Source of the DNA: Arcobacter arenosus
Lineage (GTDB): Bacteria > Campylobacterota > Campylobacteria > Campylobacterales > Arcobacteraceae
NCBI RefSeq assembly: GCF_005771535.1
Contig: NZ_VANU01000001.1
Coordinates: 186,001 to 250,000, forward strand
DNA: 64,000 nt
Reading direction: 5' to 3'
Each line of letters begins with the position of its first letter. Positions within the stretch are counted from its first letter, which is position 1. Both the position numbers and the translations under genes were made by a program. This document shows, piece after piece, positions 52,362-54,227 of this stretch. Below the pieces are notes generated by a model that was not told where the DNA came from, did not search any database, and saw nothing but the letters and a program-made list of their open reading frames with translations.

Positions 52362-52631
52362 ATGACACAGATTAAAAAAGATTTATTAGAAGTTGTAGAA
52401 AATATGATGATACCAGAAGTAGAAGCGTATTTAGAAGATTTACATACGATTATTGAAAAAAAAGAACAAACTGAAGAAAATATGGAAGAAGTAAGAGATA
52501 TGGAGTCTTTTCTTGTGGAGTTACAAAATATTATTTATGCTGTAAATGAAGGTAAAATTGATGATGAACAAGCTAAAGAAATTTATGAAAAAATTCAGGG
52601 ATTGATTAAAGAAAGTCATTCCCATGAGTAA
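52362..52631 (+). CDS. Small acidic coiled-coil protein, unknown
   Basis: 89 residues from an ATG with AAGGA eleven bases before; a start 14 codons earlier is less likely. All helical and acidic: LLEVVENMMIPEVEAYLEDLHTIIEKKEQTEENMEEV, then VELQNIIYAVNEGKIDDEQAKEIYEKIQGL. No signal peptide. Ends HSHE. Not recognised. Followed by a terminator and the structured non-coding element. Confidence 0.55.
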   Translation: MTQIKKDLLEVVENMMIPEVEAYLEDLHTIIEKKEQTEENMEEVRDMESFLVELQNIIYAVNEGKIDDEQAKEIYEKIQGLIKESHSHE

Positions 52632-52636
52632 ATTCT

Positions 52637-52660
52637 GAGGAGTTATATACTCCTCTTTTA
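52637..52660 (+). terminator. Terminator after the small acidic gene
   Basis: Stem GAGGAGT / ACTCCTC with a five-base loop, then TTTTA. It follows the stop by five bases. Confidence 0.8.
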
Positions 52661-52946
52661 TATTTTGTACTAACGAGGTGAGTACGCTTTCATACTTTTT
52701 TGTTGAAAAAAGTATGGCAAAAAACAACCAGACGAATTGTTGAAGGCAGAGCTACCCTACAGTTTGCTAATTTTTTCCTGACCTGCGGAACTCCTTCCTA
52801 AAGGTACATTTGGTACCTTTTATCCAATCAAACAGTCCTCGGTCTTTTTCGGAAATAATTAGAAAACTTCCGGATTCAACAAAGTCTGGACTTTTCTAAT
52901 CTTAGCACATTATTCCCCAACTCCTTACATTTTAAAACCCAATGTT
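52661..52946. repeat. Structured non-coding element, candidate interspersed repeat
   Basis: About 285 bases with no gene, richer in G and C than its surroundings. Contains a perfect hairpin CATACTTTTTT / AAAAAAGTATG (52691-52716), a perfect AAAGGTAC / GTACCTTT hairpin (52800-52820), and a long-range pairing CTAATTTTTTCC (52767-52778) with GGAAATAATTAG (52851-52862), one mismatch, which encloses GACC / GGTC. Further arms TTAGAAAA / TTTTCTAA lie at 52859-52899. The style recalls intergenic repeats seen in many copies in some proteobacteria; only one copy is visible here. Confidence 0.5.
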
Positions 52947-54227
52947 TTATTTACTTTTTAAAGAAGAAATTACGTCTGTAACCGTTACACTGTTCTCATC
53001 TTTAATTATTCCATTGTTAGTTTGCCTAAATATACTTTCTATCATAATACGTTTATCATTTTCATTAATAGCATTTCCTTCTTGCATTAATGCAATATAT
53101 GTATTAATCATTGTAACTCTTTCTTTTGCATCAATTGACAGATGATAACTACTTAAAGCAATTTTCATAAAAATTCGTATTATCCAAATTGCTAAAGAAA
53201 TTAATAAAATAATAAATCCATAAGCTATAATTTCTTTTATTCCTAAATCTGAGCTTTTTGTATTAATTATTGAACTTAAATATGCATATTTATAAATAGC
53301 TAATAAAATAACGAAGATTACAGTTGTAATGATTGTCGTCCACAAATACCATTTATATTTTTCATCAAAAAACTTTACTTGATTTTCCCAAAAACTTTTT
53401 GAAGTATTTGTTTCTATTTTACTTAAAATACTTTCTTCTGTATTTTTAAAATTTTCTTCTGCAACTTTTGCTTTTTCATAAATTTCATCAATATTATTTA
53501 CTTTATCTAATTTCAGTTCCAACTGTTTAATTTGACTAAAAAGTATATCTCCATTTTCTTCAAGTTTTTTAAGTCGTTGCCCTTCAGTAGTAGAATTTTT
53601 TAGGTTATCAATAAAACTATTATCTTTTATTTCATTAAATATTGTATTATCAATTAATTTCTCAATAATTAATGGCTCATAAGATTTATATGTTGGTTCT
53701 TTATCTTCAAATGCAACTTGCATCAAACTATCTTTTGATACAGACATATCTGTTTTTTCTTCTCCGCTTATAAAAACTAATGATTCATTTCTATTCTTAA
53801 ATACTTTAAAAACTTTATTTTTAACTTTTGTTTCTAGGATAAGATTTGATTCTTGTGCTGGTAAATTTAATAAATTAATTAATTTATCATATCTCAAAGA
53901 AAATTCATCTCTTGAGATATCAATTGTTACTGGATAAAAATTAAATAATTTATTAATTTCATCTACAATATATATTTTTGCTTTAATTATTGTATTTTCT
54001 GATTGTAAATATGATAATATTCTACTCAATAATAAATCTAAATCATTTACTTTATCCTGCTCTATTTTTCCAGCTTTTGCCTTATTAAGTAAATAATCTA
54101 TATAACTAATATATTTATTAATTAATTCTATGTCACCAACGTGCTTTAATAATAAATTAATTATTAAGTGATTAGATAACTTAACTTTTACATTATTTAA
54201 TGATTCAATAAGTTTTGGATATTGCAT
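52947..54227 (-). CDS. Membrane protein of DUF6161 type
   Basis: 426 residues. The first 270 are soluble and mostly helical, with a coiled coil at about 215-285 (LKKLEENGDILFSQIKQLELKLDKV). Two membrane helices follow (TTIITTVIFVILLAIYKYAY and IIAYGFIILLISLAIWIIRI), then IRIFMKIALSSYHLSIDAKERVTMINTYIALM and IFRQTNNGIIKDE, which I match to DUF6161 (moderate certainty). Proteins of this kind are patchily distributed, often among accessory genes; no function is known to me. AGGGAAAAAC before the ATG. Lies next to the structured element, with an AT palindrome in its promoter. Confidence 0.6.
   Translation of the reverse strand: MQYPKLIESLNNVKVKLSNHLIINLLLKHVGDIELINKYISYIDYLLNKAKAGKIEQDKVNDLDLLLSRILSYLQSENTIIKAKIYIVDEINKLFNFYPVTIDISRDEFSLRYDKLINLLNLPAQESNLILETKVKNKVFKVFKNRNESLVFISGEEKTDMSVSKDSLMQVAFEDKEPTYKSYEPLIIEKLIDNTIFNEIKDNSFIDNLKNSTTEGQRLKKLEENGDILFSQIKQLELKLDKVNNIDEIYEKAKVAEENFKNTEESILSKIETNTSKSFWENQVKFFDEKYKWYLWTTIITTVIFVILLAIYKYAYLSSIINTKSSDLGIKEIIAYGFIILLISLAIWIIRIFMKIALSSYHLSIDAKERVTMINTYIALMQEGNAINENDKRIMIESIFRQTNNGIIKDENSVTVTDVISSLKSK

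Follow-up and report, generated by a model that had tools for sequence, protein, structure and literature searches.

What is the structured, non-coding stretch that lies between two genes at about positions 52661-52946 of the window, by which we mean the whole 64,000-nucleotide stretch of Arcobacter arenosus DNA analysed here (contig C1 of genome G000, 186001-250000; G, L, C and f designate genomes, loci, contigs and families)? The original prediction had seen there hairpins and a long-range stem, no reading frame and a base composition unlike that of the neighbours, and had proposed an intergenic repeat family, a repetitive extragenic palindrome (REP)-like element or a regulatory RNA. We identify 52637-52891 as a solo arm, here called rod A, of a dispersed, structured, non-coding repeat. 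The element has two copies in its own genome and many other genomes have matches, so that the proposal of an intergenic repeat family holds. No open reading frame (ORF) of at least 60 amino acids (aa) in the ORF list is confined to 52661-52946; the guanine plus cytosine (GC) fraction of 52686-52891 is 0.383, against 0.213 immediately upstream and 0.219 in the next gene, and is equalled by 2.1% of 6380 sliding 206-bp pieces of the window; and the minimum free energy of 52661-52900 has a z of -3.5 on the plus and -4.0 on the minus strand, with none of 200 shuffles as stable on either. These results bear out the description, and the predicted extent contained the structured non-coding core, but its edges were misplaced: the element starts with a terminator-like hairpin at 52637-52655, 5 bp past the stop of a 103-aa ORF, and ends at about 52891-52894, the point where matches to other genomes cease, which leaves 52895-52946 outside it. 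The prediction was to be given up for a single-copy sequence with no transcript and no conserved structure; it was retained because the element is multi-copy and its structure is conserved. We judge the chances to be even that the complete unit is a mobile but non-autonomous element, whose folded single-stranded DNA is what is recognised and copied, and infer for it mobility, the single-stranded form and an enzyme acting in trans.

The rod fold is real, and has been maintained while the sequence drifted. In an alignment of 41 copies made by sequence only (A1; 44 copies were extracted and three broken ones removed before alignment), 49 of the 59 proposed pairs show change on both sides, in 364 cells, and 83.5% of cells are paired, whereas shuffles gave 67.9% paired, 37 pairs and 127 cells, and none of 500 was as high as the real alignment. 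RNAalifold unaided returned 19 pairs at an energy of -2.9 kcal/mol, and the fuller structure was assembled manually, guided by covarying columns. Its helices are the hairpin H1, the outer stem P1, a small hairpin, the inner stem P3, P4 and a variable apical hairpin, and the GTTG loop of H1 is able to pair with a CAAC past an A-rich linker, which would give an H-type pseudoknot. The features of the window copy are as follows.

52637..52655, plus strand: outer leader hairpin GAGGAGT/ACTCCTC with a T-rich tail behind it; resembles a terminator and immediately follows the stop codon of the 103-aa ORF
52667..52685, plus strand: second leader hairpin GTACT/AGTAC, seen in the sequence
52686..52891, plus strand: rod A, the structured arm that is conserved (211-bit match to the covariance model; covariation)
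52691..52716, plus strand: H1 hairpin, CATACTTTTTT-loop-AAAAAAGTATG (helix 1 of the covariation analysis)
52702..52705, plus strand: GTTG of the H1 loop, side 1 of the proposed pseudoknot with 52725-52728
52725..52728, plus strand: CAAC past the A-rich linker, proposed pseudoknot side 2 (pairing test; covariation analysis)
52728..52746, plus strand: P1 outer stem, 5' side, CCAGAC..TGTTGAA (helices 3 and 4)
52872..52889, plus strand: P1 outer stem, 3' side, TTCAACA..GTCTGG (helices 3 and 4)
52760..52778, plus strand: P3 inner stem, 5' side (helix 6; 18 of 18 pairs changed on both sides)
52851..52869, plus strand: P3 inner stem, 3' side (helix 6)
52780..52839, plus strand: P4 and apex (helices 7-9)
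52787-52793, plus strand: GGAACT^C, counterpart of the site of IS110-family copies in other genomes (IS110 junctions)
52800..52820, plus strand: variable apical hairpin AAAGGTAC/GTACCTTT, at the position of GCTNCGC in distant copies

The outer leader hairpin is also present in L007, L008, L011, L021 and L033, and the second has a counterpart, GTACTCAC..GTGAGTAC, in L007, L011 and L033.

A DNA search gave matches in 27 of 100 genomes, and a covariance model built from A1 (R1) in 24 of 60, the window's own genome being included in both counts. All but one of the 16 genomes in the window's genus had at least one R1 copy, and numbers per genome were high in several cases (at least 40 in G030, 39 in G029, 34 in G011, 25 in G007 and 21 in G023). 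At phylum level R1 matched at least 13 of 298 genomes, again counting its own, including four from other families (f16, f20) with E values of 1e-13 to 1e-8. Rfam had no match at gathering score in the window and none up to E = 1 in 52400-53200, a repeat scan at default settings listed nothing in that same interval, and Rfam scans around copies in G043 and G029 yielded no family to which the element belongs. Neither plasmids nor phages gave a BLASTN match to the window element, and in the literature outside subscription papers the motif strings occurred in no paper and no description was recognised as this family.

The fuller unit, of which the window has one arm, consists of a leader hairpin, rod A (~205 nt), a spacer, an inverted rod B and a further leader hairpin, ~520-560 bp in all. 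At 30 loci taken around strong matches (14 in G029, eight in G030, six in G023 and two in G007), a second, diverged rod (B) faces the first in 23, across gaps of 57-58 bp (10 loci), 92-106 bp (12 loci) or 139 bp (one locus), with spacer sequences that are similar within each class; in one further locus the partner is partial, at the end of a contig, and six show no partner above threshold. Ten short-spacer units of G029 occupy different sites, with a mutual identity of 80-94% over ~460-590 aligned bases, and two long-spacer units of this genome are ~70-79% identical to most of them. The G029 units have terminal hairpins in common, TCTCWTGAAGA.. and its inverse at the opposite end (unit ends TCTCWTGAAG..CTTCAAGAGA), in flanks that are mostly unlike. 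In G043, six places have copies next to rRNA operon ends, and another has a tandem array of copies with a 559-bp period. The units are mostly intergenic and seldom lie between divergent genes: with neighbours at 60 loci called by a simple ORF rule, the 58 loci with both neighbours called comprised 35 co-directional, 18 convergent and five divergent settings. Two pairs of G029 loci have similar flanks, L115 and L118 on the left over ~50 bases and L110 and L116 on the right, apparently other repeats.

Elements of this architecture occur in other phyla as well. An apical motif of 19 bases, taken from the more distant copies, ACTCGCTNCGCTCAAACAG, is present in 14 viral contigs, in ten of which (L154-L158, L160, L161 and L163-L165) the whole 5' part of the rod can be seen by eye, the other four being broken by the contig end or different-looking. 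By eye, the rod architecture is seen in Pasteurellaceae-like, Lysobacter-like, Bacteroidota-like and Ilyobacter loci, the "-like" labels being assumed from uptake signals or sequence style. In the phylum to which a Caulobacter genome belongs, seven of 398 genomes have the motif, at 26 places (12 in one genome), and none has the reversed pattern; most of these loci have the hairpin, linker, pseudoknot partner and stems, some as facing pairs. A plasmid of Ilyobacter polytropus (Fusobacteriota) has ten motif places, with a facing second hairpin at the one inspected. Pairing of the proposed pseudoknot was assessed in a more distant set of 26 copies, two of which come from the window's order and the other 24 from viral contigs or other phyla; some of these copies are closely related to each other, and one, with Ns, is scored as zero. 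The mean was 4.38 matched pairs, against 2.67 with swapped partners and at most 3.5 in 500 swaps, and 21 of the 26 had at least four pairs, against a swapped mean of 5.4 and maximum of 12. Loop and partner change together in such examples as CTTGAT/ATCAAG, GTCGCC/GGCGAC, GTGGCC/GGCCAC and GCGAG/CTCGC. When 23 copies, among them the window's and two from its order, were folded with DNA parameters, the mean z was -3.9 on the plus and -4.2 on the minus strand, and 22 copies were at -1.8 or below on both. An Rfam scan of eight foreign loci gave two weak hits below gathering score, both outside the rods. The copy in L156 had no BLASTN match in phages, and in plasmids partial matches to three Pasteurella multocida records and one from Pseudoalteromonas, and the copy in L163 matched 15 plasmid records solely via its REP-like 3' flank (query 260-299). 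We put forward tentatively, as a possibility well short of even, that these loci represent an undescribed and old class of element in several phyla, which would propagate as folded single-stranded DNA and be recognised less by its sequence than by its fold of facing rods, pseudoknotted outer hairpins and an apical, DNA-specific GNA mini-hairpin or replacement hairpin. In G642 (Pseudomonadota; L173-L191), copies of the motif have no T/A-rich hairpin but a long, GC-rich stem on the outside, and form a separate branch. At L163:2440-2480 the Bacteroidota-like copy is flanked by a palindrome of CTCCTTCGGAGAGGGG type that matches plasmids of cyanobacteria and others.

If one strand of the rod acted as RNA, G.U mispairs would be tolerated and the mirror A.C mispairs would not. 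Across 46 pairs of A1 we count 68 G.T and 74 A.C mispairs (75 and 102 across 56 pairs when unreliable ones are included), whereas 26 tRNAs of the same genome have 18 G.T and two A.C. The apex of the distant copies, GCTNCGC, is GC-GNA-GC on the opposite strand, with N being A in 24, T in 15, G in 12 and C in none of 51 distinct contexts, and among model-found copies a GNA loop is seen by eye in L080, L091, L092, L100 and L101. GNA loops with two G-C pairs are extraordinarily stable DNA mini-hairpins (PMC4686876, as excerpted). Because the two mispairs are equally frequent and the distant copies have this apical mini-hairpin, the evidence points to DNA rather than RNA as the probable folded form. 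The other possibility is that the rods are transcribed structured RNAs, such as 3' untranslated region stabilisers, terminators or small RNAs, which spread by duplication and whose fold is selected in RNA. Such RNAs would be in keeping with the RNA-like kind of the pseudoknot and helices, with the position of many units close behind a stop codon and the rarity of divergent sites (5 of 58), and with the terminator-like hairpins at 52637 and 52869, but they would not be expected to show a mispair balance unlike that of tRNAs, equal folding of both strands or a facing A-B unit with a conserved spacer, nor is there an Rfam match, and we consider this explanation rather unlikely. The regulatory RNA of the original prediction is likewise not supported by the mispair balance.

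As a mobile element of folded DNA, the unit would act as follows. The rods would form once a strand turns single in replication, uptake or conjugation; a protein acting in trans would bind the H1/pseudoknot end and the apex, and would set the unit into other intergenic sites. The palindromic unit of ~500 bp would be unstable, and as such slippage deletions are expected, whose products would be solo rods, half-rods or a single terminal hairpin, and the copy in the window may be one such remnant. Remnants of the kind expected from slippage across a long palindrome are found at one intergenic site in 15 genomes of the Pasteurellaceae-like genus of G371, between genes that we take from their protein starts to be ilvY and ilvC. 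The site is filled in eight genomes (G371, G759, G762, G764, G765, G766, G768 and G771, on the basis of full-length matches, with L212, L216 and L218 reversed in the alignment of this palindromic unit), empty in four (G758, G760, G769 and G770), and in three holds remnants recognised by eye, namely one terminal hairpin in G761 and G767 and a terminal hairpin with H1 in G763. At sites orthologous to those of G029 units, L122 carries a unit, L124 is a deletion hybrid and L123 is rearranged; no empty site with unchanged flanks was found for the G029 units. It has also to be considered that the arms may stay complementary through template switching in quasi-palindromes, without selection, the repeats then being inert debris of an old transposon. 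Balanced mispairs with no strand bias, as well as deletion remnants at palindromes, would follow from such a process, which nevertheless leaves the covarying pseudoknot, the conserved apical sequence and the multi-phylum architecture unexplained, and we regard it as improbable.

Several observations weigh against a fold-recognised mobile DNA. Slid structures had 79-135 cells changed on both sides against the 364 of the proposed one, a comparison that favours the latter because it was picked on the very alignment where the pairs were counted. Within the 41 Arcobacteraceae copies the pseudoknot is not significant (3.56 matched pairs against 3.22 swapped, maximum 3.71), and L182 folds no better than its shuffles. 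The difference in mispairs between rods and tRNAs (Fisher p 5e-4) counts related copies as independent and uses a tRNA register selected for best pairing, which slightly favours G.T. GC-GNA-GC belonged to the search pattern, the model-found copy in L094 has no GNA loop by eye, in the window a longer hairpin forms the apex, and the apices of the A1 copies from Arcobacteraceae differ as well. At 12 G029 units, one of which is without the right terminal hairpin, no target-site duplication was seen by eye; the 15-genome site is compatible with insertion and loss alike; and no mobilising gene was found.

At the inspected loci, which are a minority of the copies, no transposase lies between the facing rods apart from IS110 in the apex, and no parent insertion sequence was found in the loci read. 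Movement of a REP-type element by a REP-associated tyrosine transposase (RAYT) or its terminal inverted repeat-associated relative (TIRYT), both Y1 HUH transposases, would fit the facing pairs and extragenic sites, and long self-complementary repeats beside Y1 transposase genes have been described as TIRtrons (PMC3733652, as excerpted). In 60 genomes of the window's order, the number of R1 copies does not track that of Y1_Tnp (PF01797): Y1_Tnp is absent from G023 with its 21 copies, and equally from G002, G003 and G005, which also carry the element, whereas G036 has no copy but 17 Y1_Tnp matches. In addition, the RAYT of the window's own genome has short REP-like palindromes of its own, TTCCCAAGCT..AGCTTGGGAACTAG, unrelated to the rods (L057:530-2060, contig C4). 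Because Y1_Tnp and copy number part ways in these same genomes, RAYT is disfavoured as the mobiliser and a REP-type element so moved is very unlikely. In the excerpted text of PMC3733652, a REP is a palindrome of 20-40 bp with an unpaired GTAG or CGTC at one end; the present unit is ~520-560 bp, its G029 ends are neither GTAG nor CGTC, and its copy number in the 60 genomes shows no association with RAYT or TIRYT (Y1_Tnp) genes. Like REPs, bacterial interspersed mosaic elements and TIRtrons as that text describes them, the units are extragenic palindromes, often facing dimers, mostly at co-directional or convergent sites and patchy across phyla, and like REPs they are targets of the IS110 family (PMC11187229, as excerpted); unlike them, the rod is ~205 nt with several helices, and in the window's order its copy number does not track Y1 genes. 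The label REP-like in the original prediction therefore applies loosely, for a palindromic, extragenic, often paired IS110 target, and fails on rod length and on RAYT-type genes.

The G029 units have the short terminal inverted repeats, lack of coding capacity and dispersed copies of miniature inverted-repeat transposable elements, as do the structured examples bcr1, ERIC, NEMIS and Nezha (PMC3733652, as excerpted). They differ in being longer than the 70-300 bp given there, and in having two diverged rods around a spacer, a pseudoknot and look-alikes in several phyla. The Haemophilus influenzae intergenic dyad sequences (Read and Farley 1997; Read et al. 2000, cited in PMC4144887, as excerpted) are conserved extragenic dyads thought to be relevant to the mobility of loci, and may be the Haemophilus branch of the family, part of which may then already be in print under their name.

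Integron attC sites are long imperfect hairpins whose fold is conserved beyond sequence. The rods resemble them in this, with little sequence conserved, and attC folds, like REP folds, are known targets of IS110/IS1111 elements (PMC11187229, as excerpted). Neither the R'' (RYYYAAC) nor the R' (GTTRRRY) box is present on either strand in any of the 41 rods, which moreover stand in facing pairs and not in direct arrays; identity with attC was rejected, and an integron-type site or a single-strand origin is extremely unlikely as an explanation.

A 323-aa DEDD transposase of the IS110 family (PF01548, PF02371) has eight matches in five of the 16 genomes of the genus. The six close copies, with 82-100% identity (two in G002, three in G007 and one in G010), are all flanked on both sides by rod pieces, in one orientation, and by eye the junctions lie at GGAACT^C of the apex or its variant; two more distant copies (54%, and a 49% fragment) have no rod pieces. 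It is likely from these junctions that one IS110-family element uses the rod apex as its landing site. At L047:261-480 (G007), short inverted copies of the end of IS110 lie in a rod apex, apparently an insertion that has lost its interior.

A structured and widespread family without an Rfam match would be an unmapped part of bacterial intergenic DNA, and would account for patterns of presence, absence and remnants between otherwise conserved genes. If mobile, it would be recognised by its fold despite little common sequence, and as such would be a test case for structure-guided mobility of single-stranded DNA beyond integrons and IS200/IS605. The rods are in addition a clear natural target for an IS110-family element of the bridge-RNA type.

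At the window locus, the 103-aa ORF has its stop side at 52631, a 426-aa ORF on the minus strand starts at 52947, and two overlapping ORFs of 67-68 aa span the edges of 52661-52946. Relatives of dadA with a named source are in L003, from an uncultured Campylobacterales bacterium (82%), and in L004, from Aliarcobacter vitoriensis (64%). In L003 the gap between dadA and the HIT gene is 62 bp, the 103-aa gene is located elsewhere, and a covariance model search did not find the element, in agreement with the predicted edge of an insertion between dadA and the HIT/murF unit. What follows the 103-aa gene varies: only rod A in the window, a different gene after 35 bp in L003, an A-B unit after the orthologue in G002 (L033), and rod A with IS110 inside it and then rod B in G010 (L036, L225). 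Segment 52150-54284, comprising the element together with the 103-aa gene and a DUF6161 gene (PF19658), has no counterpart between dadA and HIT in L003. DNA from the terminal part of the DUF6161 gene (52947-53082) matches L054:967-1101, in a genome of another genus (G024), at 79% identity, and that match lies near a pair of elements of the same family.
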